From positions 620,001 to 684,000 of the forward strand of contig JAFKIL010000003.1 of the NCBI GenBank assembly GCA_017306415.1: a stretch of DNA of 64,000 bases, in the 5' to 3' direction. Every line of letters starts with the position of its first letter. The first letter of the stretch is position 1. The notes below the pieces were generated by a model, which did no database searches, was not told the DNA's origin, and was given only the letters and a program-made list of their open reading frames with translations. Source of the stretch: Microbacterium sp. (lineage in GTDB: Bacteria > Actinomycetota > Actinomycetes > Actinomycetales > Microbacteriaceae). This document shows positions 33,288-47,618 of this stretch, piece by piece. The translations under genes were made by a program, and so were the position numbers.

Positions 33288-33947
33288 TCAGGGCAGCGAG
33301 GCGAGCACGATCGCCAGCAGCACGGCCGCGACGACCGCGACCGCGACCGCCGCGCCGACGACCACGAGCACGCGCCGACCCCGCGTGCGGCGCGCCGAGC
33401 GATCCGCGGCGATGGCGTCGGGCACGATCTGGGGCTCGCGAACCGGTTCCGGGGCGCGATCGACGCGGGCCGGCTCCGGCGCCCGGGGACGGTAGATGGC
33501 GTTCGCGGCGGGTGCGTTCGGCTGGCGAAGGGGACGCCCGGGCGCGGATGCCACGCCCGGGCCGCGCGGTGACACGACGGTCGGCCCCGTCGCGTCCGGA
33601 TCTCCGCCCCGTCGGCGGGACAGCGCGGTGTCATCGCCCCCCGCCGCGACCCTGCGAGCGGATACCTGTGTGTCGTCCATGGGAGCGCCGCCCCGTCGCG
33701 CGGACAGCTCCGTGTCGTCGCGCGGGACGACGGCCCTGCGCGCGGACAGCTCCGTGTCGTCCTCGGTGGCTCCCGCCCGGCGCGCGGACAGCTCCGTGTC
33801 ATCCACGGCCGTTCTGCGGCGACTCGGCACCGTGTCCTCGTCGATCTCGTCGGGCTCCGACCGGTCGTCACCCGGCCGCACGCCGGAGCGACGACTGCCG
33901 AGCTCGGTGTCGTCGGCCGCGGCGTCCGGCTCCTCCCGACCGCTCAC
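33288..33947 (-). CDS. Tail-anchored protein with tandem DDTELSARR-type repeats, 219 aa
   Basis: GTG 33947 overlaps the stop of the FHA gene as GTGA, which fixes the start. Residues 12-113 hold seven copies of an acidic-Thr-x-x-x-x-Arg-Arg motif: DDTELGSRR, DEDTVPSRRR, three DDTELSARR, DDTQVSARR and DDTALSRRR. The last five have Thr at 51, 65, 79, 93 and 107, an exact 14-residue period. A Pro/Arg-rich stretch leads to one helix (about 193-215, VLVVVGAAVAVAVVAAVLLA) with only three residues after it, so the repeats face the cytoplasm. I infer a multivalent substrate for the cluster kinase and ligand for the FHA protein; no known family is recognised. Confidence 0.75.
   Translation of the reverse strand: MSGREEPDAAADDTELGSRRSGVRPGDDRSEPDEIDEDTVPSRRRTAVDDTELSARRAGATEDDTELSARRAVVPRDDTELSARRGGAPMDDTQVSARRVAAGGDDTALSRRRGGDPDATGPTVVSPRGPGVASAPGRPLRQPNAPAANAIYRPRAPEPARVDRAPEPVREPQIVPDAIAADRSARRTRGRRVLVVVGAAVAVAVVAAVLLAIVLASLP
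33609..33803 (-). repeat. 42-bp tandem coding repeat
   Basis: The DNA for residues 49-113 of the repeat protein consists of five units of 42 bp. Unit cores recur as ACACGGAGCTGTCCGCGCG in reading direction, with the variable part between Arg-Arg and the next Asp-Asp. It could expand or contract by slippage or recombination. Confidence 0.75.
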
Positions 33948-35593
33948 GCGTCGCGGGCGAGTCGCAGCTCGGCGTCCCCGAGGAGGAACCGCATCGTCGC
34001 CACGTGCGGCCGCCCGGGAAGCAGTTCGGTCTCGCGCCCGTCCGGGGACAGCAGCACGACGCCGTTCGTCGAATCCAGGTCGACGATCGTCCACTCGCCG
34101 TCGTGCAGCTCGAGTCGCGCGTGCGTCTTCGACATCGTCCGCGTCTCATCGGCGATCGCCACCAGCTGCGCGCCCGGATGGGACGGGTCCGCGCTCGGTC
34201 GGCGCCCCAGGACGAGCACGTCGCGTGTGACGGCGATCGGCGCGCCCAGGGGCGGGATGAGCGTCCACGTGCTGCGACGGCGCGAAGCGACCATCGTCTG
34301 GTCGAGCACGGCATCCTCGTCCGGCAGCTCGGACGGGGCCCGGCGCGCCGACACAGAGGCGCGTGCCGCCATCGGCTCGCCCAGGCGCGGGGCGCCGAGC
34401 ACGGCGGAGACCTCGGCCGACGTCTCCGAGAACCCGTCGCCGGTCGGCTCGGGCGAGAGCCGCGGCGCGCGCGTGGCGCCGTAAGGCGCGGCGGGCGGCG
34501 CCCAGGGGTCGCGCGCCGGCGCGATCGGAGCACTGCCGGGGAGGCTGCCGGCCGATGCGGCGGAGCGCTCGTCGTCCGACGATCCGTAGTCGTCGCCGGG
34601 CGGGAGCGCCCGACGGGGGCCGGGTGCGTCCTCGGGCAGGAGCGGCGGGCGCGCGCCCTGGCGCCGCATCGTCACCGGGTCGAGCGGATCGTCGACCACG
34701 TCGGAGTCGTCATCGTCGTCGTAGCCCGCGGCGAACGGACCGCCGCGGGCGCGCAGGGGACCCGGACGGTCGGGGTCGGGTGCCGGAGGCTGATCCGGGG
34801 CGCTCGTCACGGGCCCGGGGAAGCCGCGCATCGGCGACCGCGTGGAAGCGGCCGCCGCCGTTGCGGGCGGTGGGGGCGGTGGCGGTCCGGCCGGATCCTG
34901 CGGGACGGGCCGGTCGTCGCCCGGGCCATCGTGCGCGGCGTCGACCGACACCGGGGTCGCACCGAGCGGCGCCGCACGCACCGGTGACCCGCCCGGGACC
35001 ACGGGCAGGGTCGCGGATGCGGGGGCCGCCTCTCGCGCGGCAACGGTCGCGCCGACGGCGACGGGCTGGGGCGCGACCTCGGCCGCGGCGGGTTGCGGCC
35101 GTGAGAGCGGGACGGAGGAGACCACCGGCTCGACATCCCCACCCGCGAGCGGTGCGGTGAAGCGGGCGTCGAGCTCGGCGGACGGCGTGCGGAGCGGCCC
35201 CGGCCGGGAGGCGGGCGTGTCGTCGCCCACCCATTGCGCGCCGCCCCAGCCCACGATCGAGCTCCAGACCGGGAAGAGCAGGGCGGCCAGCACCGTCATG
35301 CCGACGCCGAGCCCGAAGTCCGCGTTGATGCGCCGATACGCGACGATGAGCAGCACCCACAGCACGATGGCCGCCGGGGGGAAGAGGATCAGCAGCACCC
35401 ACCACCCCGAAAGCCGGCCGAGCTGCAGCAGCGTCACCGTGTTCAGGACCGGGACCCATGCCTTCCAGCCCTGCTCGCCGGCCTTGCGGAACACGGCGTG
35501 CAGACTCGCCGCCGTCCAGACGTACACGGCGAGGCTCAGGAGGACGGCGAAGACGATCGGCCCGGTGGCCGCTGCGGGATCACTCATTGTCAT
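33944..35593 (-). CDS. DUF5684 membrane domain plus C-terminal FHA domain, 549 aa
   Basis: Residues 10-125 form about three to four helices with the DUF5684 pattern (AVFRKAGEQGWKAWVPVLNT). A 300-residue Pro/Ala-rich linker follows, and residues 440-545 are an FHA domain: LGRRPSADPSHPG, SKTHARLELHDGEW and DLDSTNGVVLL supply the Gly-Arg, Ser-x-x-His and Asn-Gly ligand residues for phosphothreonine. Just before it lies DQTMVASRRR (Thr433), the same Thr-then-Arg-Arg spacing as in the neighbouring repeats. It overlaps the transglutaminase-like gene by 14 bases; ATG 35587 is an alternative start. Confidence 0.82.
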   Translation of the reverse strand: MTMSDPAAATGPIVFAVLLSLAVYVWTAASLHAVFRKAGEQGWKAWVPVLNTVTLLQLGRLSGWWVLLILFPPAAIVLWVLLIVAYRRINADFGLGVGMTVLAALLFPVWSSIVGWGGAQWVGDDTPASRPGPLRTPSAELDARFTAPLAGGDVEPVVSSVPLSRPQPAAAEVAPQPVAVGATVAAREAAPASATLPVVPGGSPVRAAPLGATPVSVDAAHDGPGDDRPVPQDPAGPPPPPPPATAAAASTRSPMRGFPGPVTSAPDQPPAPDPDRPGPLRARGGPFAAGYDDDDDSDVVDDPLDPVTMRRQGARPPLLPEDAPGPRRALPPGDDYGSSDDERSAASAGSLPGSAPIAPARDPWAPPAAPYGATRAPRLSPEPTGDGFSETSAEVSAVLGAPRLGEPMAARASVSARRAPSELPDEDAVLDQTMVASRRRSTWTLIPPLGAPIAVTRDVLVLGRRPSADPSHPGAQLVAIADETRTMSKTHARLELHDGEWTIVDLDSTNGVVLLSPDGRETELLPGRPHVATMRFLLGDAELRLARDA

Positions 35594-38087
35594 CGGGCGC
35601 CGAAGTCGACGGACGCCCCCTCCTCTCCGTGGCGGGCAGGATACCGCGCGAGATCCGTGGACGTTCCCGCGTGAGCCGGGGCGCGAGGCCCCGGGTGAAC
35701 GATCTCAACGATACGGCCGCGAGCGCCCGTCGCCACAAAGGTGACGACGTCGAGAGCCGGTGACGCTCGTCGTCGACGATGCGCCAGAACTCCTCCGACT
35801 CCTCCGGCGTGAGCGCGGTGTCGGAGAAGACCGCGCGATCCGCGGCCAGCGCGAGCTGCGCGCCGCCCGCGCTGTCGTAGCGCGTGGCGAGCTCCCCCCG
35901 CGTCTCGCTCGACGGTGCGGGGAGACCGTGGTCCACCGCGGTGTCCACGTACTCCTCCCAGCCACCGACGACCCGTGCGGCCGCGTCGGGGGTCTTCCGC
36001 CGGGTGCGCCGGCGCATCGTCTTCGCCGCCACGACGACGAGGAAGGGTCCCAGCACCACGATCAGGGAGAGCAGGACGATTCCGCCGATGCGCACGACGT
36101 CCCACAAGGCGGCGACATCGAATCCGCTCGGCCTCCGCGTCGCCGCGTTGTCCGCGTCGTGCTGCACCGGATCGGGCGGCACGACCTCCCGCGCGGTCTG
36201 CGGTCGCACGTCCGTGGGGTTCTCCGGATCCCGCTGGCGCGTCACCTGGTCGTCCAGGCCGACCTCGTGCTGAGGGGTGACGTCGACCGGCACCCACGCG
36301 CCCCCGTTGGAGAGGACCTCCGTCCACGCGGTGACGTCGGCGCCCGTGCAGACACCGCCCGCGCACGACGGGACGCCCTGGTCCTCGCCCGTGAGGCGCA
36401 CCCCGACCACGACGCGGGCGGGGAAGCCCAGCTGCTCGGCGACGAGGGCGGTGGCGACGGCGAACTGCTCGTCGTCGCCGATTCCCGCGACCAGCGACGC
36501 CGGGCCCGCTCCGTCCCCCGCGGCCGTCTGACGCTCCAGCAGCTGACGGAACAGCGCGTCGATGCGGGCGAGCGAGTGACCCGACGCGCTCGGCTGGAAG
36601 GTGTATCCGGCGCCCAGCGACCGCATCCACGCGGCACCGTCGGCTGGCACGGCCAGGGCGTGGCTGAGGTAGCCTCGCTCGCGCAGTCGGGTCACCAGAG
36701 TCTCGAGGGCGGCTCCATCCGTGCCGACGTGCTGCTGCTCGATCCACGTCTTGATGCTCTCCGGCACAGCGACCGACGGCGTGGTGCCCGGCGCGGTGAT
36801 GCGGGCGAGCGCAGGTGGCGGTGCGACGTTCGCCGTCACCGCGAACGCGTCACCGGCCGCCATGCCTCCGCCCGCCGTGTCGACGCCCGCCTCTGCGGCG
36901 GCGTCGTAGTAGAAGGCGTCCGCGAGCGCGGAGGCGTTCTCCCCCTCGAACGAGACCTGGCGCAGCGAGCCGAAGGTGGGCATCCAGATCCCGCGGAGAC
37001 CCTCGATGTCGATGCGCACGCTCGCGACGCGGCCGTCACCGCCGGGGAGCTCCGAGGGGACACGGGTGAATCGCGCGTCGGCGGAGCCGCCGGCGGCCAC
37101 GCGGTACACGGTGCCGTCGTAGTCGGAGAGCGTCGCGATGCGGAGGCGATCGGGCAGGGCGCCCTGGAGCGCGGTGACGGTGAAGAGCCGTCGCGAGAGC
37201 GCGGCATCCGAGAAGTTGGAGCGGTACTCGGACAGCGGGCTCACCGCACGGCTGATCGCCAGTTCGGGACCGACGCCGCTGCGGAGCACCTCGCGCTGCC
37301 GCCCCGCGGCCATCGCGGGTGCGGCCACCGCGGCGACGACCACCGCGATCGCGAGCATCGCCGCGGCGAGACCTCCGCGACGCGCGTCGGACGCGGTACG
37401 GCGACGCGAGACGCGCACGCCGCTGGTGTCGGCCGCGCGACGAAGCGCCGCCCGGCGCTGGTCCTGCGATCGCCATGCGAGCCACAGGAGGGACAGGACG
37501 AGCGCGAGCGCGCCGCACAGGATCTCGCGCGGCGCCGGCACGGAGACCGGCCCGATCTCGATCGGCGCGCTGGGGACCGTTCGGCCGAACAGGAGGCCGA
37601 ACAGCGTCATCCCGAGACCCGTGACGGCGCCCCACGAGCCCCCGCGTCCGTGTCGCCGCGCCAGCAGCGCCGTCACGAGCGTCCCGCCGAGGAATACGAC
37701 CAGGGCGGGCACGAGCAGGTTGCGGTAGGCGCCGACGGGGAGGTCGACCGTCACCAGGTCCTTCCACCCGAGGACCACGCCGACGACGAGGTCTCGCAGC
37801 GCGGCGATGATCGCGAGCGGCGACGGCCCGTCGGGAGGGACGGCCAGCGTCACGCCCAGCACGACGAACGCCCCGAGGGCGACGACGCCCACGAGCCACC
37901 CGCGCCACTCCCACACCGCCGACGCCACGGCGATCGCGACCGCGACGGTCACGGACGCCACCGCGAGCATCCCGAACCGGAGATCCGCGTAGATCGGCCA
38001 CGCGGCGATGGCGGCGACGACGGCCATCGCGGCCGCGTACCCGGTACCGGCGAGGAAGCGGGTCGCCCGCAGGTCGGAGACGCTCAC
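35580..38087 (-). CDS. TgpA-like membrane transglutaminase-fold protein with altered catalytic residues, 835 aa
   Basis: GTG 38087 overlaps the DUF58 stop as GTGA. The N-terminal 240 residues hold at least seven helices (DUF3488 type), then an extracytoplasmic region, a transglutaminase-core domain (about 520-610), one helix (about 675-695) and a cytoplasmic tail. In the core, where the family has G-x-Cys-E-H-F, this protein has GDDEQF with Asp539; where it has His-Ala-Trp, it has TAW with Thr586; the third residue, Asp602 in PVDVTP, is kept. So it probably is not an active Cys enzyme. Encoded between DUF58 and DUF5684-FHA genes. Confidence 0.85.
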   Translation of the reverse strand: MSVSDLRATRFLAGTGYAAAMAVVAAIAAWPIYADLRFGMLAVASVTVAVAIAVASAVWEWRGWLVGVVALGAFVVLGVTLAVPPDGPSPLAIIAALRDLVVGVVLGWKDLVTVDLPVGAYRNLLVPALVVFLGGTLVTALLARRHGRGGSWGAVTGLGMTLFGLLFGRTVPSAPIEIGPVSVPAPREILCGALALVLSLLWLAWRSQDQRRAALRRAADTSGVRVSRRRTASDARRGGLAAAMLAIAVVVAAVAAPAMAAGRQREVLRSGVGPELAISRAVSPLSEYRSNFSDAALSRRLFTVTALQGALPDRLRIATLSDYDGTVYRVAAGGSADARFTRVPSELPGGDGRVASVRIDIEGLRGIWMPTFGSLRQVSFEGENASALADAFYYDAAAEAGVDTAGGGMAAGDAFAVTANVAPPPALARITAPGTTPSVAVPESIKTWIEQQHVGTDGAALETLVTRLRERGYLSHALAVPADGAAWMRSLGAGYTFQPSASGHSLARIDALFRQLLERQTAAGDGAGPASLVAGIGDDEQFAVATALVAEQLGFPARVVVGVRLTGEDQGVPSCAGGVCTGADVTAWTEVLSNGGAWVPVDVTPQHEVGLDDQVTRQRDPENPTDVRPQTAREVVPPDPVQHDADNAATRRPSGFDVAALWDVVRIGGIVLLSLIVVLGPFLVVVAAKTMRRRTRRKTPDAAARVVGGWEEYVDTAVDHGLPAPSSETRGELATRYDSAGGAQLALAADRAVFSDTALTPEESEEFWRIVDDERHRLSTSSPLWRRALAAVSLRSFTRGLAPRLTRERPRISRGILPATERRGRPSTSAPDDNE

Positions 38088-39445
38088 GTCTGCACCCCCC
38101 GCAGCATCAGTCCGGCGAGGTCCCCGAGGAGCCCGACCGTGAGGACGTTCAGATCTCCGAACTGCCGGCGCTGCGGATGAGCCTTCTCGTCGCACACGAT
38201 CGCGACGACGGCGGTCTGATCGGAGAACGACAGCGCCGCCTGCCGCAGGCGCCCGAGCGAGACCTGCGATCCGCAGACGAGGAACGCGAGCGACAGGGTG
38301 TCGGATGCCTCGACCGAGAGCCGGCACACCTCCTCGACGGGCATCGTGTGCTCGAGGGACCGCACGCGGGAGAAGCCGTCGAGGAGACCGCGCGGCGTGG
38401 TCGCGGTCAGCAGCTCGATCGAGCGCATCCGCCCCCGCACCACGCGCGGGATCTCCGCGCCCGTGACGACGTCGAGATCGCGCCCGTCGCGCACGGCCTG
38501 CGCCGCCAGCGAAGCCGCGACGCTGACGCCGAGCTCGAACTCGTCGTCGGACGCGTAGTCGGCCTGCGCGAGGCTCAGGATCACCGCAAGTCGCGAGCGG
38601 AGCGACTCCTCGAACTGACGCACCATGAGACGTCCGGTCTTCGCCGTCGACTTCCAGTGGATCTGACGTCGCGCATCCCCCGGTGCGTACTCGCGGATCG
38701 CGTGGAAGGACATGTCCGCGTCGACCAGGCGGCGACTGGGGTTGCCCTCCAGGTCGCGCACGAGCCCCGCGCTCGTCGCCGGCACCGCCACCGTCCGCGG
38801 GTGCACGTAGAGCTCGTGCGTGGCATCCCATTCGTGCTCGCGCCGCAGGAGTCCGATGGGATCGGTGCGCACCGCAGTCGGCGGGCCCACCGTGATCACG
38901 CCGCGATGCAGCGCGGGGATCGACACCGGCTGCGAGACCTGATGTCCGGCGCGCAGGAGCGGGACGCCCAGCTCCACCAGGCCGTCGCCCACGGGGAGGT
39001 CGAGTCGCCCCGGCAGCGTCGTGCGCGCGCCGACGTTGCGGATCTCGATCTCGCCGTCCACGGTCTCGCCCGCCACCACCCGCTCATGGGAGAGCCGCAC
39101 GCGCACGTCGTACCCGCGCGCCCCGAAGAGGAACGGCACGCTCATCGCGACGAGGGCGACGGACGCGACGCCGGCCACGACCGCCTCGATCCACCCGAAG
39201 GTCCAGCCGAGGGCCAGCCCGGCGGACGCGAGGGCCAGCACGAGCCACCCCGCCGGGGTGACGGTGTGCGAGAGCCAGCGGCCGGCTGCCTCGGCACCCT
39301 CGCGAGCGCCCCGGCTCCACTCGATCAGGCCGACCACGCCGCGCACCAGCGCCCCGCGTCGCGCCGTGGCGATGCGGGTGCGGCTCGCGGTGAGGCCGTC
39401 CGTCGCGGACACCGTCCGCGTGAGGGACGCCGAGGGCTCGGTCAT
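38084..39445 (-). CDS. DUF58 protein, 453 aa
   Basis: Two helices near residues 55-95 are followed by a beta-rich part and the DUF58 signature FHAIREYAPGDARRQIHWKS (core YxxGDxxRxIxW) with a von Willebrand A-like continuation (LRSRLAVILSLAQADY). DUF58 proteins accompany MoxR ATPases and are thought to act with them in assembling or activating envelope complexes. ATG 39445 overlaps the MoxR stop as ATGA. Confidence 0.9.
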   Translation of the reverse strand: MTEPSASLTRTVSATDGLTASRTRIATARRGALVRGVVGLIEWSRGAREGAEAAGRWLSHTVTPAGWLVLALASAGLALGWTFGWIEAVVAGVASVALVAMSVPFLFGARGYDVRVRLSHERVVAGETVDGEIEIRNVGARTTLPGRLDLPVGDGLVELGVPLLRAGHQVSQPVSIPALHRGVITVGPPTAVRTDPIGLLRREHEWDATHELYVHPRTVAVPATSAGLVRDLEGNPSRRLVDADMSFHAIREYAPGDARRQIHWKSTAKTGRLMVRQFEESLRSRLAVILSLAQADYASDDEFELGVSVAASLAAQAVRDGRDLDVVTGAEIPRVVRGRMRSIELLTATTPRGLLDGFSRVRSLEHTMPVEEVCRLSVEASDTLSLAFLVCGSQVSLGRLRQAALSFSDQTAVVAIVCDEKAHPQRRQFGDLNVLTVGLLGDLAGLMLRGVQT

Positions 39446-40407
39446 GCGGTCTCGCGCTGTGTCGGGGGCGGCACGTCCAGGAGGACCTGGCCGATGACGG
39501 CGTCGGCCGTGACCCCGTCGAACTCGGCCTCGGGATGGAGGATCAGCCGGTGCGCGAGGACCGGGATCGCGAGGGCTTTGACGTCGTCCGGGGTCGCGTA
39601 GGTGCGTCCCTGCGACGCCGCCCGCGTGCGGCTCGCGCGGGTGAGGGCGAGCGCCCCCCGGATGGAGACGCCCAGACGCACCTGCTCGGCCGACCGCGAG
39701 GCATCCACGATGCGAGCGATGTAGTCGAGCACGAGCGCGTTCGCGTAGACGTCCTTCGCCAGGTCCGCCATGGCGATGAGGGCCTTCGGGGTGATGACCG
39801 CCTCGAGCTGGTCGGCCGGTCGCGCACCGCCGTCGAGGATCCGCAGTGTGGCCGCATGGTCGGGATAGCCGAGCGATGCCTTGAGGAGGAACCGGTCGAG
39901 CTGGGCCTCGGGCAGCCGATACGTCCCTGCCTGCTCGACGGGGTTCTGCGTCGCGATCACGACGAACGGGACGCCCACCGCACGCGACACCCCATCGATC
40001 GTGACCCTGCCCTCCTCCATCACCTCGAGGAGCGCCGACTGCGTCTTCGGGCTCGCCCGGTTGATCTCGTCGGCCAGCACGATGTTGGCGAAGACCGGAC
40101 CGGCGTGGAACTCGAACACCCCGGTCTTCTGGTCGTACACGGTGATGCCGGTGATGTCGCCGGGGAGGAGGTCGGGCGTGAACTGGATGCGGGTGTTCGT
40201 GCCCTCCATCGAGTGACCGAGCGCCCGGGCGAGCGAGGTCTTGCCCGTTCCGGGCACATCCTCGAGCAGCACGTGCCCGTCGCTCAGCAGCGCTGTCAGG
40301 ACGAGCTCGATCACGTGGCGCTTCCCGAGCACCGCCTGCTCGACGTTGTCGGCGAGCTGCCGGAACGTCTGGGCGAACCAGGCCGCCTGCTCCTGCGAGA
40401 TGGTCAT
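39442..40407 (-). CDS. MoxR-family AAA ATPase, 321 aa
   Basis: Walker A is EDVPGTGKTSLARALG (residues 49-64) and Walker B with sensor region is NIVLADEINRASPKTQSALL; FVVIATQNPVEQAGTYRLPE is the MoxR-specific block. These chaperone-like ATPases remodel partner proteins carrying von Willebrand A or DUF58 domains. Full length. It follows the giant surface protein gene by 15 nt and overlaps DUF58. Confidence 0.95.
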   Translation of the reverse strand: MTISQEQAAWFAQTFRQLADNVEQAVLGKRHVIELVLTALLSDGHVLLEDVPGTGKTSLARALGHSMEGTNTRIQFTPDLLPGDITGITVYDQKTGVFEFHAGPVFANIVLADEINRASPKTQSALLEVMEEGRVTIDGVSRAVGVPFVVIATQNPVEQAGTYRLPEAQLDRFLLKASLGYPDHAATLRILDGGARPADQLEAVITPKALIAMADLAKDVYANALVLDYIARIVDASRSAEQVRLGVSIRGALALTRASRTRAASQGRTYATPDDVKALAIPVLAHRLILHPEAEFDGVTADAVIGQVLLDVPPPTQRETA

Positions 40408-40422: not shown

Positions 40423-43400
40423 TCAGGGGTTCGGGTCGGGTGCCGGCGGCGGGTTGTTGGGGGTGCACGTGCTGCTGAAGGATGCCGCGGCGCGCTGCAG
40501 GTTCCAGCCCTGCGAGGTCGCGGACGCGGACCAGTCCACCGTGACGCGGACGTTCTCGACCGTCACCGCCCCGATCGGGACGGTGCCGTCGCCGGTCGGA
40601 GCGAGGACCTGGCCCTGGTCGTCGAGATAGCGCGCCCCGGAGGTGTCGAAGGACACCACCGACGGGCCGACGGTCGATGCCCCGGAGACCTGGAGCGGCT
40701 GGCCGCCCTCACACACGTCCACACCCCACGTCGCCTGCACCTGGTACGGGGCGCTGCCCGCGCGCGGGGACACTGTCGCGACGTCGCTCTTCCACGATCC
40801 CCACTGATACCACGCGGTGATGCCGGGATCGCGGTCGAACACGTCGGTGGGGTACCCGCCGAAGCGGACGTCGGTGCCGTCGGGCGGCGTCTCGGCCGCG
40901 CTGACGGGCGCATCCGAGATGCGCCACTCGGCACGCCCGGTACCGACGATCGGAGTCGGCGCGACGGTGAAGGTGTAGCCGCGCGGCGCGCGCGTCGTCG
41001 GGAACGCGGTGACGTCGGCGGTCGTCTCGACCCGTCCGAAGGACTGCCCGTCGTACCAGGATTCGGCGCACAGCCGGTATCGGTACGTCTGCCCGACCGG
41101 GACCGTGAAGGTCGCGCTCCCCCCGTCGGTGGACACCGTGCAGGGCGTGCCGTCGGAGACGATGCCGTATCGGATGCGCGAGCCGTCCCCGCCCGATCGG
41201 GCGACGCCCTGCGCGGTGATCGTCGCCGTGCGGTCATCGTTCGGACTCGAGGAGAGAGACAGGGAGGGGGCCACCGGCGCCCCGATGCCGTTGGTGGCGA
41301 TCGTGGCCGTCTGGCCCGTGTTCGACCCGTCGAAGCCCGGCGGCAGGGCGAACCGCGAGTAGGGGGTGACGGTGAGCCGCGTGAGGGCGTTCGAGCCGAT
41401 GCGGTAGTTCGGCACGAAGACCGTGCCGTCGCCGCGGCCGACCGGGACGTCGAGGGTGTCGCCGTTGTCGCTCGTGAGGCGCACACCCGCGGTCTCTGTC
41501 GTGTCGATACCGTCGATCCGGACCGAGACCACGCCGCCGTCCCCCGAGGTGACGACCGGACGTGCCGTGACCGCCGACGGCGCCGGCGGAGCGTCGTAGG
41601 CCCACGCGCTCGTCGTCGCGGCGCTGCGGGACTCGCCGACGGCGTTCACCGCGACGGCGCTGTACACCCGCTCCTCCCCGTTGGGCGCGCTGAACGAGGG
41701 GCAGGTGCCGTCCGGCGTGCAGGTGACCACCGTGCGCCCCTGGGACCGCACGACGAACCCCGTGAGGGCGGGATACGCCGAGCGCGCGTCGCCGGGATCG
41801 ACCCGCAGCGTGACCGACTGGTCGCCGTACGCCGACTGGACGAGCGCCGCCGGCGCCTGGGGGAATCCCTGGAGGTCGAGCAGGAGCCGCCCGTCGCGGT
41901 CCGCGCTCGTCTCCCGCCCTTGCGCATCGCGCAGGGAGACCGACGCCGTGCAGGTCGCACCGGGGGCGTCCGCGGTCCACGACGCCCGGACGCCGGTGGA
42001 GGATGCCACGGAGAACGTGACCCCTGCGCACGTGCCGGTCGGGGTGACGCCCACGACGCGCAGCGGCGTGCGCGGCAGCGGATTGACCTCGCCGGTGGCG
42101 CCCGTCACGGTGATGACGCATGACGAGCCGTCCGCCTCCGAGCACCGCCGGGCGACCGTGCCGCCCTGGGGCAGCGTACTCGGCGCCGCGCCGACCCGGA
42201 GGATGAGGCGCGCCGGCGCCACGCCCGGGTGACTCGTCACGCCGACGACCGCGACCTCTTCGGAGCCGGGGGTCGCGGCATCCGCCCCCGTGATCTTCAG
42301 CAGCGCGCCGTCGCGCTCGATCCGAAAGTCCGCACCCGAGTAGGCGAGCGAGTAGACGATGCGATCCCAGTCGGCGCGACCCTGCCAGGTCGTGAGCGTC
42401 TTCAGGTCGTAGGTCACCGTCTGCCCCGGGGCGGCCGTGATCGAGGCCGCACGCAGGACCGGGACCGGCGTGAGGGCGGTGACCGCGACCGGAACCGACA
42501 GGTAGGTCCAGTTCTTGGTGCCGCTCAGCCGCACGGGCACGATGCACGCGTCGGTCCACGGGGCGCCCTCGCCGGCGTCGTAGCGCACCTTCGTGCCCGA
42601 AGCCCGCTCGCACACGCCCGCCTTGCGCGCCTTGGTGGACGTCACGGCGGAGCCGACCTCGAGCGTCGCGCCGCGGGGGATGCTCACCAAGGAGGCCATG
42701 TCCCACGTCACCGCCTCGCGCTCGGTGACCTGCTGCGGCTTCACCCCCGACCGGAGGGCGAGGGTCAGATCGTCCACCCCCGGGACACGGAGGAAACCGT
42801 ACGAGGTGACCTTCTCCCCGTTCGCGCCGACGCCGGTCAGGGCGAAGGGGATGACGCGGCTGAGGGTCGGGATGCTGCCGCTGAGCCGCGTCCCCTCGAC
42901 CGTCACACCCGGCTGATCGCCCCACAGCGTCAGCGTGAGGCGGGAGACGTCGCCGCCCGACCACGCCACCTTCCCCGCGACGACGTCGATGCCGTCGGGG
43001 AACCTGTCCCGGGTCTCGGCCGTGAGGATCGTGTCGGTGACGACGGGGTAGTCCGGGACCGCCTCGCGGACGACCTTGACGACGATGAGACCCCTCGCGG
43101 TGTTGCCCGTGGAGCTCTCCACGTCGTACAGGAAGGACATCGTCTCGGGATCGTTCCCGGCGCGGATCACGACCTGCGACTTCGTGGAGTCGGCGATCAG
43201 CCCCTCGAGGCGCGCGTACTCCGGGTTGGCGCTGCCGTCGGCGAGCGTCCGGACCACGTCGGGGTGGACGCCGGTGAGCGTCAGCGTGCCCCCGGTCGGG
43301 TCGATGTCGTTCGCGAGCGGGAGCACCTTGACGGCGCTGTCCGAACCCGCCTGGAGCTGCACGTAGTCGGTGAAGGTCACCGGGCTCGGGTTGGCCTGCT

Positions 43401-46371
43401 CGTCGAGGACGCCCACGCGCACGGTGGCCGTGCCCGTCGCCCCCGACGGATCGGTGACGTCGTAGGTGAACGACACCTGCCCGTGGAAGCCGGGGACGCT
43501 GGAGTAGACGATGGACTCGCCGTCGGCCGAGAGCGTGGCCGAGCCGCTCTTGGGCTGGGTCAGGATGCGGTCGAGGGTGACGTCGTCGCCGTCGGGGTCG
43601 ACGCCGAACGAGTGGAACGGGATCGTCGTCGACTGACCGCTGAGCACCCGTCCCTCGAGCGTCTCCGGCCGCGGGGCGCGATTGGACTCGGCCGAGATCA
43701 CGGTCACGCGCACGGTCGCGGAGTCGGCCAGCGTGGGCGACCCGGCCGCGTACACCGAGTACTGGACCCGGTAGGAGCCGGGCTTCTCCGGGGCCAGGTA
43801 GCGCAGGACCCGGCCCGACGCGAAGGCTAGCGCGTCCTTCGTCGACGACGTCACCGACGACGGGTCGAGGATGATCGCGCCGCCCGCGGTCGCGACGTCG
43901 TTGTCGAGCACCGGGATGTCGACCTGGGCACCGGCACGCACGACGACCGAGTCCTCCACCGCGATCGGGGCGAGGTCGCTGGCAGGCGGCAGCAGGTACA
44001 CGGTCGCCTCGCCGGTTATCCGGGCCCCCGCGTCGCTCGTGCCGTCGGACACGACGTACCTGATCGTGCCGAGCAGTCCGGGAGCGCCGTCCGCCGTCGT
44101 CCCGGAGACGCGCAGGTAGTTCTGGCCGACGGCGTCGACCGACATGCTCGCTCCCGTGGCGGGGGACGGCTGCACGTCGCTGAGCAGGAGCACGCGCCTC
44201 GTCGGGTTCGTCACGGCGGCGAAGACGTCGAGCGTGACGTCCTGCTTGGGGTGCACGAACGCGACCACCGGCGAGGTGGCGAGCTGCGCGGGCGCGTCGG
44301 CGGGGAGGATCGTGATGCGCGCCGTCGCGGACGCCTCGCTCCTCCCGTCGGTGACGGTGTAGCTGACGCGGTATGTCCCCGGTCCGCGCGCGCTGAAGTC
44401 GAAGCTCGTACTGCCCGCCGTGGGCACGGCCTCCGCGTTCGCGTCGTCGAGGACGCGCACCGAGGTCAGCGACATCCGCCCCTCGGTCCCCGTGAGATGC
44501 GGCCCCACGTCGACCGTCAGGCCCCCGCTCTGCGTGTCCACGACCGTGAACGACTCCGCCGTGAGCGTCGGCTTCGGCGTCACCCGCACGATGAGCGGGC
44601 GCGTCGTCGTCGCACCGCGCGTGTCCGCGACGGTCACCTCGAGCTTGACCACCTGGGACTGCGTGCTGGAGGCGTTCGAGTGCTGGAACACCACGTCTCC
44701 GGACGGTGTGGAGGCGACCGCGCCCACGCCCGCGTCGTCGGTCACGGACAGCAGCATGAGGGGGTCGCCGTCCGGGTCGACCCACCCGTCCAGCACGGGC
44801 ACGGTCACGGTCCCGCCCGGCGCCACCTGGGGCGTCGGCCACACCGCGAGGCATCCCGTCACGCCGCACCACTGCGGGGCCGCGTTGTCCGGCGCCGGCG
44901 AGACCGTCAGCGTGACGGTGGTCGGCGGCGACAAAAGGCCGTCCGCCGTGGTGCCGTCGGTGACCCGATAGCGGAAGGTCGCCGTTCCGGTCGCTCCCGG
45001 CGCCGTCTGCACCGCGAGCCGCTGGCCGTTGTCGGTGATGCTGACCGTCCCGAACGCCGGATCCAGTCCGGTCACGCTCCCGGGGTCGATGCTGAGCACG
45101 TCCTCGTTCGGGTCGTGGTCGTTCAGCAGGACGGGGAGCGCCACGAGGCTGCCGGCCCGCACGCCGAACGCGTCGGGCTCGGCCACCGGCGGCTTCGGGT
45201 CGATCACGACCTGCGCCTGCTCGTCACTGGGCTGGGACTGCGGGTCGGCGCGGTCGTCGAGGCTCCAGTCCTGACTGGACGTCATGAGCTTCGCGGTGTT
45301 CGCATTCCACACCCACCCGCTGCGGGTCTCGTTCAGGATCACACTGGATCCGGCCGACACGAACACCGGGCGGCGGTCGTCGGCGAGCGACTTCCCCCCG
45401 TAGGGCAGGTCGCGGTCACCGCTGTCGGAGCGCCACAGCGTGCCACCGGACGCGCCCAGCCATGCCGCATACACGATCCCGTCGCGAACGAGAGGTCGCG
45501 CCGGCTCTCCGCGGTCGAGCGACCCGCCGCCGACGGCGCGCGACGGCGCCGATCCGTCGACGGGGAGCCGCACGAGCCCGGTCTGGTCGGCGACCCACGC
45601 GGCGTCGCCCGCGGAGGTGGGTCGGCCGTAGGCCACGTCCCCGACGAGATCGATCTTGCGCGGCGCGTCGCCGCCGCGCCGCCAGACCCGGCCGCCATCC
45701 GCGTCGACGAGGAACCACACGCCCCCGGCGGCGGTGAGGCGCACCGCGGTGGAGGTCGGCGGGCTGCGGACGGCATCCTGCCCGAGCACCTCGGACCCGG
45801 GGATGCGATAGCGCAGCACCACGCGATCGGCCTTCGAGTAGGCGTAGACGACGCCCGCGTCGTCGACGGCGATCGCCTCGGCCGTGAACTCCGGCGCCTG
45901 CGGTCCGTCGCCGCTGGGGTCGAGCTGGACGGGACGGCCCCCGGACAGCGTGCCGGTGAAGACCGCGCCGGAGTCCGTGCGGTACGCGACGTAGTCGCCC
46001 GACACGGCGGCCTCCACGGTTCCGGCGGGGGTGGACGGCGACTGGCGGAGAGTCTGGTCGTCGAGATCCGCCGGGAGCGACTCGTCGATCCGGGTGAGCT
46101 TGCCGAAGCTCTCGGAGAAGAGGTACGCGCCGTCGTCCGTCTGCGCCACGGCCGACGGATTCGCGATGCTGCGGACCGTGTCGAGCTCGTCGATGGCCGT
46201 GTTCACGCGCGCGTAGCGCCGGCCCTCCCCCGTCTGCAGCGCCCACACGGCCGTGTCGGCGGGCGGCGTCGTCTTCGCGTCGAGACCCGGCCAGACGATC
46301 CCGATGACGACGACGGATGCCACGACCGCACCGGCGGCGACCGCCGTCCACAGCACCGAGCGCCGTGACAT
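40423..46371 (-). CDS. Giant membrane-anchored Ig-like/FN3 surface protein, 1982 aa
   Basis: One N-terminal helix (about residues 8-28, TAVAAGAVVASVVVIGIVW) anchors it with the remainder outside. Residues 40-370 look like a beta-propeller (repeats with YLFSESFGKLTRID, VAYRTDSGAVFTG). Then come roughly ten Ig/cadherin-like units of the type PVLLNDHDPNEDVLSIDPGS or PVLDNDVATAGGAIILDPSS, then fibronectin-III domains, and a short C-terminal PPPAPDPNP. Four or more Cys pairs (CGVTGC, CERASG, CSEADG) lie in the outer half. It is a surface or cell-wall-spanning adhesin or scaffold. It starts one base after the kinase stop. Domain counts are by eye. Confidence 0.85.
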   Translation of the reverse strand: MSRRSVLWTAVAAGAVVASVVVIGIVWPGLDAKTTPPADTAVWALQTGEGRRYARVNTAIDELDTVRSIANPSAVAQTDDGAYLFSESFGKLTRIDESLPADLDDQTLRQSPSTPAGTVEAAVSGDYVAYRTDSGAVFTGTLSGGRPVQLDPSGDGPQAPEFTAEAIAVDDAGVVYAYSKADRVVLRYRIPGSEVLGQDAVRSPPTSTAVRLTAAGGVWFLVDADGGRVWRRGGDAPRKIDLVGDVAYGRPTSAGDAAWVADQTGLVRLPVDGSAPSRAVGGGSLDRGEPARPLVRDGIVYAAWLGASGGTLWRSDSGDRDLPYGGKSLADDRRPVFVSAGSSVILNETRSGWVWNANTAKLMTSSQDWSLDDRADPQSQPSDEQAQVVIDPKPPVAEPDAFGVRAGSLVALPVLLNDHDPNEDVLSIDPGSVTGLDPAFGTVSITDNGQRLAVQTAPGATGTATFRYRVTDGTTADGLLSPPTTVTLTVSPAPDNAAPQWCGVTGCLAVWPTPQVAPGGTVTVPVLDGWVDPDGDPLMLLSVTDDAGVGAVASTPSGDVVFQHSNASSTQSQVVKLEVTVADTRGATTTRPLIVRVTPKPTLTAESFTVVDTQSGGLTVDVGPHLTGTEGRMSLTSVRVLDDANAEAVPTAGSTSFDFSARGPGTYRVSYTVTDGRSEASATARITILPADAPAQLATSPVVAFVHPKQDVTLDVFAAVTNPTRRVLLLSDVQPSPATGASMSVDAVGQNYLRVSGTTADGAPGLLGTIRYVVSDGTSDAGARITGEATVYLLPPASDLAPIAVEDSVVVRAGAQVDIPVLDNDVATAGGAIILDPSSVTSSTKDALAFASGRVLRYLAPEKPGSYRVQYSVYAAGSPTLADSATVRVTVISAESNRAPRPETLEGRVLSGQSTTIPFHSFGVDPDGDDVTLDRILTQPKSGSATLSADGESIVYSSVPGFHGQVSFTYDVTDPSGATGTATVRVGVLDEQANPSPVTFTDYVQLQAGSDSAVKVLPLANDIDPTGGTLTLTGVHPDVVRTLADGSANPEYARLEGLIADSTKSQVVIRAGNDPETMSFLYDVESSTGNTARGLIVVKVVREAVPDYPVVTDTILTAETRDRFPDGIDVVAGKVAWSGGDVSRLTLTLWGDQPGVTVEGTRLSGSIPTLSRVIPFALTGVGANGEKVTSYGFLRVPGVDDLTLALRSGVKPQQVTEREAVTWDMASLVSIPRGATLEVGSAVTSTKARKAGVCERASGTKVRYDAGEGAPWTDACIVPVRLSGTKNWTYLSVPVAVTALTPVPVLRAASITAAPGQTVTYDLKTLTTWQGRADWDRIVYSLAYSGADFRIERDGALLKITGADAATPGSEEVAVVGVTSHPGVAPARLILRVGAAPSTLPQGGTVARRCSEADGSSCVITVTGATGEVNPLPRTPLRVVGVTPTGTCAGVTFSVASSTGVRASWTADAPGATCTASVSLRDAQGRETSADRDGRLLLDLQGFPQAPAALVQSAYGDQSVTLRVDPGDARSAYPALTGFVVRSQGRTVVTCTPDGTCPSFSAPNGEERVYSAVAVNAVGESRSAATTSAWAYDAPPAPSAVTARPVVTSGDGGVVSVRIDGIDTTETAGVRLTSDNGDTLDVPVGRGDGTVFVPNYRIGSNALTRLTVTPYSRFALPPGFDGSNTGQTATIATNGIGAPVAPSLSLSSSPNDDRTATITAQGVARSGGDGSRIRYGIVSDGTPCTVSTDGGSATFTVPVGQTYRYRLCAESWYDGQSFGRVETTADVTAFPTTRAPRGYTFTVAPTPIVGTGRAEWRISDAPVSAAETPPDGTDVRFGGYPTDVFDRDPGITAWYQWGSWKSDVATVSPRAGSAPYQVQATWGVDVCEGGQPLQVSGASTVGPSVVSFDTSGARYLDDQGQVLAPTGDGTVPIGAVTVENVRVTVDWSASATSQGWNLQRAAASFSSTCTPNNPPPAPDPNP

Positions 46372-46372
46372 G

Positions 46373-47509
46373 TCAGGCCTGACCCGCGGCGACGACCGCC
46401 CACACGATCGCCGCAGCGACGAGGACGACCCCCGCCGCGATCACGACGGCCCACGGCCAGAGCCGTCGACGCGGAGCGACCGGCAGCGAGATGTCCGTGT
46501 CCTCGTCCCGTGCGCGGTCGACGAGCGGGCGGGGGCCGGTCGTGCGCCGCGCGGAGTCGTGGCGGACGGACGAGACGACGGGACCGCGCAGCGATGCGTC
46601 CGCGAAGTCGACCTCGGGGCTCGGGGGCGCCCAGTCGGCGGTCGCGACCTCGATGGGCGTCTGCGCGAGACCCAGCTCCGCCTGCGCGCCGCGCAGCGCC
46701 TCGGCGAAGGCGAGCGCCGTCGGGTAGCGGTCGGCCGGCTCGCGCGACATGGCCTTCGCGAGGATGTCCTGGACGGTGTCGGGGACGTCGGGGCGGGTCA
46801 TCCGGGGGTACGTCGCGTGCTGGATGCGGCGGCGGAGCTGGTCGCGCGAGTTCTGCCCGGGCTCCAGCCTCTCGAAGGGGCTCCGCCCGGCCAGCAGGGA
46901 GTACACCGTCGCTCCCAGACCCCACACTTCGCTCGCGACGGATCCGGTCGTCCGTTCGGCGATGACCTCGGGGGCGCTCCACGGCACGCTCATGGCCAGC
47001 ACCTCCCCGCCGGAGGTCGACGACAGCGACGACGAGATCCCGAAGTCGGCGAGCACGGGGATGCCGAAGGACGTCACCAGGATGTTGCTCGGCTTGACGT
47101 CGCGGTGCACGAGGCCCGCGCGATGCGAGGACTCGAGCGCGCTGCCCATCTTCACCCCGATCGCGAGCACCTCGTCGAGGGGCAGGCGTTCCGTGCGGTA
47201 GCGGTGCGCGAGCGAACCGGGGCAGTACTCCATCACGATGTACGGGCGGCCGTCGGCGGACAGCCCCGCCTGGTACACCGTCACGATGGACGGATGCGCG
47301 GACAGGTGCGCGAGCACATCCGCCTCGGCGTTGAACATCCGCAGCATCTCGGGGTCGTGGACGTCGCTGGGCAGCACCTTCACGGCGACGCTCCGGCGCG
47401 GCATGTCCTGCTCGTACAGGAACACGTCGGCGAATCCACCCGAGCCCAGCGGGCGCACGTAGGTCAGACCGGGCAGCACCGGGGGCGCAGAGGGCAGCCG
47501 CTTCGGCAT
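46373..47509 (-). CDS. PknB-like Ser/Thr protein kinase with C-terminal helix, 378 aa
   Basis: All kinase residues are present: glycine loop GSGGFADVFL (22-31), Lys44, Glu62, HRDVKPSN (135-142), Asp155-Phe-Gly and APE at 179-181. After a linker, DEDTDISLPVAPRRR precedes one helix (about 352-374) with four residues outside, so it has no PASTA or other external sensor. ATG 47509 has a GGGGG binding site; an ATG at 47572 would add 21 Arg-rich residues. It is the first gene of the cluster, so it likely signals to or through the FHA and repeat proteins. Confidence 0.93.
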   Translation of the reverse strand: MPKRLPSAPPVLPGLTYVRPLGSGGFADVFLYEQDMPRRSVAVKVLPSDVHDPEMLRMFNAEADVLAHLSAHPSIVTVYQAGLSADGRPYIVMEYCPGSLAHRYRTERLPLDEVLAIGVKMGSALESSHRAGLVHRDVKPSNILVTSFGIPVLADFGISSSLSSTSGGEVLAMSVPWSAPEVIAERTTGSVASEVWGLGATVYSLLAGRSPFERLEPGQNSRDQLRRRIQHATYPRMTRPDVPDTVQDILAKAMSREPADRYPTALAFAEALRGAQAELGLAQTPIEVATADWAPPSPEVDFADASLRGPVVSSVRHDSARRTTGPRPLVDRARDEDTDISLPVAPRRRLWPWAVVIAAGVVLVAAAIVWAVVAAGQA

Positions 47510-47618
47510 CGATCCCCCGATCGTTCCCCGCACGCGCCCACGCCGGCCCCGCCGCGAGGCGCGCGAGACCACGGTCAGGGTCCGGCAATCGTAACAAAGC
47601 GCGCCGCGAGCGCGCCGA

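Follow-up and report, generated by a model that had tools for sequence, protein, structure and literature searches.

Here we describe a cluster of seven genes on the minus strand of the window, the stretch of 64,000 nucleotides of Microbacterium sp. that was analysed, and the repeat protein that its last gene encodes (Table 1). In order, the genes encode a Ser/Thr kinase, an Ig/cadherin protein, a MoxR ATPase, a DUF58 protein, a transglutaminase, a DUF5684 protein with an FHA domain, and the repeat protein, with all genes running in the same direction and separated by gaps of at most 15 nt or joined by small overlaps. A preliminary description of this DNA had placed a Ser/Thr kinase in the same cluster and had held the repeat gene to be translationally coupled to the gene of an FHA protein, and both statements hold: the kinase opens the run, and the start of the repeat gene shares four nucleotides (GTGA) with the stop of the FHA gene. 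Beyond the repeat gene lie genes that we take, from their sequences, to be the ribosomal genes rpsL and rpsG and then fusA. With its co-directional kinase, surface protein, MoxR, DUF58 and transglutaminase genes, the run has the core of a PFNA-type cluster, and no PP2C gene was found in the window operon. Elsewhere in the same genome there are five FHA proteins, each a possible alternative reader. A second kinase cluster of this genome (G000:C11:455000-467000, L080) resembles a type VII secretion-linked signalling cluster and contains a transglutaminase, an RDD-type FHA protein, a PP2C, an FHA protein, a Ser/Thr kinase and a large FHA-bearing ATPase similar to FtsK/EssC.

Table 1. Genes and sequence features of the cluster, in window coordinates
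Feature	Position	Strand	Details and basis
Membrane Ser/Thr protein kinase, first gene	46373..47572	minus	Pkinase 2e-41
Kinase juxtamembrane motif DEDTDISLPVAPRRR, directly before the membrane helix	46463..46507	minus	kinase-tail comparison
Large Ig/cadherin-repeat surface protein	40423..46371	minus	1982 aa; Big_9, Cadherin_5
MoxR-type AAA ATPase	39442..40407	minus	AAA_3 1e-60
DUF58 protein	38084..39445	minus	DUF58 4.5e-9
Membrane transglutaminase-like protein	35580..38087	minus	Transglut_core 6e-10
DUF5684 membrane protein with C-terminal FHA domain	33944..35593	minus	Pfam DUF5684 1e-12, FHA 2e-6; fold model, PDB matches
Self motif DQTMVASRRR (Thr 433) in the disordered linker ahead of the FHA domain	34274..34303	minus	alignment; low-confidence model
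Repeat protein gene	33288..33947	minus	219 aa, GTG start at 33947; translation
Motif DDTELGSRR, Thr 14	33888..33914	minus	motif scan
Motif EDTVPSRRR, Thr 39	33813..33839	minus	motif scan
Five units of 14-residue period, residues 49-113	33609..33803	minus	DDTELSARR (three times), DDTQVSARR, DDTALSRRR; 42-bp tandem repeat
C-terminal helix with the membrane anchor, residues 177-216	33300..33419	minus	AlphaFold2

The repeat protein and its FHA neighbour

A plus-strand reading of 33288-33947 is interrupted by an internal stop, and the seven threonine motifs that the preliminary description had counted are indeed present on the minus strand. The predicted protein consists of a disordered N-terminal part, acidic and rich in arginine, which carries all seven motifs, followed by a single C-terminal membrane helix. 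The motifs follow the pattern [DE][DE]T(x3-4)RR, with threonines at residues 14, 39, 51, 65, 79, 93 and 107, and the last five are spaced by exactly 14 residues, as had been claimed. When residues 1-175 were shuffled 100,000 times, 98,153 of the shuffles held no such motif, 1,833 held one, and 14 held two, which was the maximum. AlphaFold2 models one helix and no further secondary structure, with a pLDDT of about 40-50 across the motif region and a mean of 60, and the tail anchor proposed earlier stands as this single predicted helix. Neither Pfam nor NCBIfam holds a family matching the protein at E 0.001, which agrees with the earlier remark that no family of this kind was described. The features of a multivalent array, namely several threonine acceptors, a disordered chain and a membrane anchor, are all present as predicted features of the sequence.

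Tandem Repeats Finder reports a 42-bp array in the gene with 3.3 copies and 81% matches, an indication that the period of 14 residues arose by DNA duplication. In the three pairwise comparisons of units 49, 63 and 77, 21 of the 27 motif codons are identical, 6 are synonymous and none is changed, whereas none of the 15 spacer codons is identical, 4 are synonymous and 11 are changed. Thus the motif has been held and the spacer has not, which is as expected if the motif were under selection and the spacer free.

The neighbouring protein has a Pfam FHA match above the cut-off, and a fold search against the PDB returned FHA domains that include OdhI, GarA, Rv1747 FHA-1, MDC1 and DgcB, the MDC1 and DgcB matches containing their own N-terminal phosphopeptides; a phmmer search of its C-terminus against the PDB returned nothing at 0.01. 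The linker ahead of the domain carries a threonine motif of its own, which we call the self motif; this motif, like the PP2C gene found in many relatives' operons, was absent from the preliminary description. From this threonine to the first FHA strand there are about 10 residues, and linker residues 4-38 have a pLDDT below 50 in the FHA model. The protein thereby has the trait of the self-ligand proteins GarA, OdhI and DgcB, a conserved threonine in a disordered stretch N-terminal to the FHA domain.

The threonine is invariant in all 35 orthologues of our alignment (A1), or in 35 of 39 when four left-out DUF5684-type paralogues are counted. The GR, SxxH and NG elements of the phosphothreonine pocket are likewise invariant in the 35 rows, an invariance that is partly one of selection since the rows were picked by a pattern demanding the FHA signature, and most of the linker is variable. 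The 35 rows were taken from 44 FHA references, the nine without a clear motif being left out: four that are a different FHA protein (L040:3913, L045:2775, L053:3858 and L054:3359), L044:2611 as being in the wrong frame, and the DUF5684-type paralogues L047, L048, L050 (looser Thr, QTQTVRPRSRRR type) and L051 (none). Twelve of the 35 rows come from loci without a repeat gene directly after the FHA gene. At the loci that do bear a repeat gene, the self motif occurs in every one of the 46 FHA proteins (45 by rule, L113 by eye).

Distribution and variation of the repeat family

When the repeat protein was used as a query, it matched its own genome and only 2 of 57 others. Because the sequences are too divergent for such a direct search, the family was reached by walking from the FHA gene, and its loci are therefore those located by way of that gene. 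The FHA search gave some match, paralogues included, in 55 of the 59 genomes of the genus, in addition to two named Microbacterium loci. In this way the search of other Microbacteriaceae that the preliminary description had proposed led to a syntenic family of 46 loci, extending into a second family of the same order: Microbacterium accounts for 27 of them (one repeat gene truncated), two further genera of the window's own family for 6, and a single genus of the second family for 13. Five additional repeat genes found late (L232, L239-L242) stand outside the residue counts given below, and for L029, L037 and L040 the presence of a repeat gene is undecided. A C-terminal hydrophobic segment, called by score and otherwise by eye, is present in 45 of the 46 repeat proteins, while L008 runs off its contig.

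The repeat gene follows either the FHA gene itself or an FHA-PP2C pair, the latter arrangement being that of the second family, of both other genera and of Microbacterium loci L049, L052 and L117. The order FHA, PP2C, repeat protein is kept at all 20 of the loci L111-L130, which come from the better-scoring FHA matches; among 20 weaker matches (18 from other families, one from the second family, one from another genus of the window's family), the rule recognises a repeat gene at L177, in the second family, alone. On the FHA tree, the proteins of L049, L052 and L117 cluster with those of other genera and outside the main Microbacterium lineage, a placement suggestive of gene transfer or an old paralogue.

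At 15 Microbacterium FHA loci the FHA gene is not directly followed by a repeat gene over the distance searched. A second FHA locus was read in eight of these 15 genomes, and it has a repeat gene in four (at an FHA-PP2C locus) and none in four. Ten second FHA loci divide into four with FHA, PP2C and a tail-anchored threonine-motif protein (G008, where that protein has two motifs, G015, G079 and G271) and six without. At the four positive loci (L239-L242: G015, G079, G008, G271), the self motif TVLAAHRR resembles the repeats TRLAERR and TLLAERR of the same loci, and a kinase lies about 12 kb off the second FHA-PP2C locus.

One search was independent of the FHA gene: a profile of the repeat family (A2, with L008, at a contig end, left out) matched 9 of 297 genomes of the order, 8 of them at the FHA locus; its sensitivity is low, since it missed known repeat genes in at least seven genomes (G082, G111, G166, G180, G208, G282, G293). 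The match in G035 (E 2.7e-6) is a membrane protein and was rejected as spurious.

Motif number ranges from zero (L082) to seven by rule and reaches eight in L125 and L129 on a count by eye; motif spacing, also judged by eye, is irregular in most relatives, L119 and L125 having regular stretches of 16 residues. The preliminary description had reported acidic residues before the threonine and an arginine pair at +5/+6; this stands for the window protein, but across the family the pair is common and not universal, many relatives having a single arginine in its place. Motifs in relatives include DDHTVMSTRR (L125), DDSTRLATRR (L122), DRTVVVGRP (L114) and EDRTRVVDRPG (L119). Judged from these sequences, the family is fast-evolving. 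One Microbacterium group (L009, L012, L013, L015 and relatives) shares the repeat-protein N-terminus DDPDDVTLWAGRLRAWPTPP, a variant of the acidic-threonine motif.

The threonine motif in FHA protein, kinase and phosphatase

FHA domains recognise phosphothreonine and not phosphoserine, so a bias towards threonine is what would be expected of an FHA ligand. Across 46 proteins, 352 positions in acidic-hydrophobic-basic context were counted with any letter as acceptor, and with 14 adjacent S/T pairs set aside the acceptor is threonine in 140 and serine in 3; outside the motif context, the same proteins have 476 threonines and 605 serines. A stricter rule applied to the first 23 proteins gave 68 threonines and 2 serines among 80. 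As the motif rules were fixed after the data had been viewed and the repeats are related, the Fisher values of 2e-41 and 7e-19 only say that the bias of threonine over serine in these sequences is strong.

Serine or alanine at position pT+3 is less classical for FHA ligands. In the available excerpts of PMC5549992, the pT+3 residue is described as modulating FHA selectivity, and a pTxxS case appears among FHA ligands. In the 10 genomes where the self motif has a hydrophobic +3 residue, 36 of 41 repeats of the same genome are hydrophobic there, against 6 of 99 in the 34 genomes where the self motif has a small residue. On the FHA tree, the state of the self motif changes only twice and that of the repeats five times. 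With so few changes of the self state, the match between self motif and repeats is suggestive only and may reflect common descent.

We also considered whether the motif forms a code used throughout the window's own genome, and rejected the idea. The DNA pattern for [DE]T-hydrophobic-hydrophobic-x-x-RR gave 17 matches against 3 for a reversed control, and the 16 of these 17 places that were read are unrelated proteins or out of frame, except for one sugar-permease N-terminus. This N-terminus, SETETLVVPRRGKRT (L068, G000:C3 near 24087), carries a similar threonine motif outside the cluster.

The kinase, too, bears a version of the motif in front of its membrane helix. Thirty kinase loci were listed, with the tails of four further genomes falling outside these counts: RDEDT[DE][IFL][SA] is found in all 17 main-lineage Microbacterium tails inspected, and among the 13 others two have DEGTVLAG, two have REGTL and nine are without a similar motif. 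The C-terminus of PP2C is an acidic-threonine stretch in 20 of 20 loci L111-L130, in some as DDDTVASSRRQVDR, and six second-locus PP2C genes have a weaker tail motif. Such PP2C tails (L111-L130, L168-L172), with DDDTVASSRRQVDR, EDTTPSARRRG or EDTLPR, also occur in some families in which no repeat protein was seen. The phosphatase itself may, on the sequence of its tail, be an FHA client.

In 42 of 42 decidable repeat-bearing loci, and in 6 of 14 repeat-less ones, the contig also has an orthologue of the kinase (E 1e-60 or better) 12-15 kb away, a difference with a Fisher value of 2e-6 taken over related sequences. When second loci are added, four to the first class (whose 42 include G118) and six to the other, the FHA gene has a kinase orthologue at a distance of 12-15 kb in all 46 decidable loci with a repeat gene and in 8 of 20 without one; locus places were read by eye from match tables, and contig breaks set aside G166, G020, G009 and G078 (repeat-bearing) and G069 (repeat-less), with L034 also left out. 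For six of the eight repeat-less loci that have no kinase, the genome instead has its kinase about 12 kb away from the second FHA locus, and four of these second loci have a threonine-motif protein and two do not (G025, G031).

Proposed mechanism, alternatives and known systems

We propose that the repeat protein is a tail-anchored, disordered and multivalent phosphothreonine ligand, phosphorylated by the kinase and bound by the neighbouring FHA protein so that the latter is clustered at the membrane, a reading that we consider reasonably probable on the sequence comparisons above. In each D/E-D/E-T-x-(V/I/L)-(S/A/V)-x-R motif the threonine would be phosphorylated by the cluster kinase, the DUF5684 protein would bind the resulting phosphothreonines through its FHA domain, and one repeat molecule could thus gather several FHA proteins under the membrane. 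Since each FHA protein bears the same motif about 10 residues from its own domain, phosphorylated FHA proteins could additionally bind each other head to tail; given the 10-residue linker, and by analogy with TIFA, the self motif is more likely to be bound in trans than in cis. The motif could likewise recruit kinase tails and, in relatives, PP2C tails. The outcome would be a membrane cluster, switched on by the kinase and reversed by the phosphatase, that controls the machine formed by the Ig surface protein, MoxR, DUF58 and the transglutaminase. The preliminary description's reading of the protein as a multivalent phosphothreonine scaffold is on this evidence partly supported: synteny, the threonine acceptor, the FHA pocket, the shared motif and kinase proximity favour it (the kinase and phosphatase tail motifs, counted towards it, are not in every lineage), whereas the 14-residue spacing and the arginine pair are unconserved.

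We put forward more tentatively, as an idea that we would not yet expect to prove right, a stronger version in which one threonine motif is common to kinase, phosphatase, FHA reader and tail-anchored array, and its phosphorylation starts the assembly of FHA proteins into a polymer or condensate at the membrane. In that version the array with its several seats would seed head-to-tail self-binding, making a bacterial counterpart of assemblies of the TIFA or MDC1 type. What is known of bacterial FHA signalling is mainly a matter of one phosphothreonine binding one domain. If the array does act as a multiplier of the reader's own ligand, valency itself becomes the signal, PFNA-type clusters would gain a concrete and testable mechanism, and the natural arrays, with one to about eight motifs, would serve as reagents for learning how copy number sets clustering.

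Much of this evidence can be read differently. The array might be a kinase substrate and FHA ligand that soaks up the kinase or titrates the FHA protein, damping clustering and acting as a sponge or buffer; the motif shared with FHA linker and kinase tail, together with the threonine bias, fits such a role equally, and the variable copy number and the absence of the array at many FHA loci would suit a tuning element. Assembly, however, is favoured by the self motif and by the fact that both partners are anchored in the membrane, and we regard a buffering role as unlikely. The motif might also be no more than the sequence that the cluster kinase prefers to phosphorylate or to dock on, unread by the FHA domain, with its carriers being plain substrates. 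Acidic residues before threonine suit actinobacterial kinases, and the kinase's own tail carries the motif; yet the motif of the FHA linker is kept at the eight repeat-less loci where no cluster kinase lies close by (their genomes do have other kinases), and the pT+3 residue of the repeats tracks that of the self motif, which together make this substrate role quite improbable in our estimation.

We give very little credence to a structural or sorting role without phosphorylation, for instance through arginine-rich patches near the membrane, or to repeat drift. The 42-bp tandem repeat in the DNA and the fast turnover of the sequence, by which the single-protein search matched so few genomes (2 of 57), would suit such a reading, but the threonine is kept while spacers, flanks and copy number change, and it is invariant across the aligned FHA linkers.

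Returning to the proposed clustering ligand, the closest gene order is that of the Bifidobacterium PFNA operon, given in excerpts of PMC8430577 and PMC6803598 as pkb2, fn3, aaa-atp, duf58, tgm, prpC, a hypothetical gene and fha. As far as these excerpts go, the order of kinase, surface protein, MoxR, DUF58 and transglutaminase is the same as in the window, and PP2C and FHA end the cluster in some species, whereas the window's cluster lacks PP2C and ends with FHA and the extra repeat gene. We rejected the possibility that the repeat protein is the hypothetical seventh gene: the Bifidobacterium-like loci L215 and L224 encode between PP2C and FHA a different repeat protein, built on a VAYENPEFGANV... 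repeat (open reading frames were listed for 4 of 12 fetched loci, and L216 and L217 were picked on the other strand). The units of the L215 and L224 protein are like VAYENPEFGANVAVNPRCYPGLKRWLAEFGD. Bifidobacterium-like FHA proteins also have a self motif, WDGTVLS or WDSTVLS, at six loci.

To our knowledge, Rv1747 is the nearest bacterial precedent for kinase-driven and phosphatase-reversible clustering of a membrane FHA protein. The available part of PMC9312465 describes condensation in vitro for Rv1747, PknF and PstP of Mycobacterium tuberculosis, promoted by the kinase and reversed by the phosphatase. Rv1747, as that part presents it, resembles our system in being a membrane protein with FHA domains and a disordered linker, and its FHA-1 domain is among the fold matches; it joins FHA domains and linker in one ABC transporter, whereas in our system the multiple acceptors sit on a tail-anchored protein of their own. 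In DgcB, the FHA domain takes a phosphothreonine from its own N-terminal tail, with the +3 position important, and the chain from which the bound tail originates is ambiguous in the structure (excerpts of PMC6733907). The likeness to GarA, OdhI and DgcB, so far as the excerpts describe them, lies in one conserved threonine in a flexible tail ahead of the FHA domain; in the Microbacterium protein, in contrast, a stretch of only about 10 residues separates that threonine from the first FHA strand, and a second protein carries further copies of the motif.

We know of no separate multi-threonine scaffold for human TIFA. According to excerpts of PMC7083832, phosphorylated Thr9 of TIFA, near its FHA domain, binds a neighbouring molecule and thereby gives kinase-switched oligomers. 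The TIFA pathway is unrelated to the Microbacterium cluster. MDC1 is a disordered protein that recruits FHA proteins through repeated acidic phosphothreonine motifs; it belongs to a eukaryotic DNA-damage pathway, is served by the kinase CK2 and has no membrane anchor, and the likeness meant here is one of design. In the open-licence literature we found no described family of this kind, and subscription papers may differ. We rate the cluster type and FHA/kinase signalling as known, and the dedicated threonine array as the new element.
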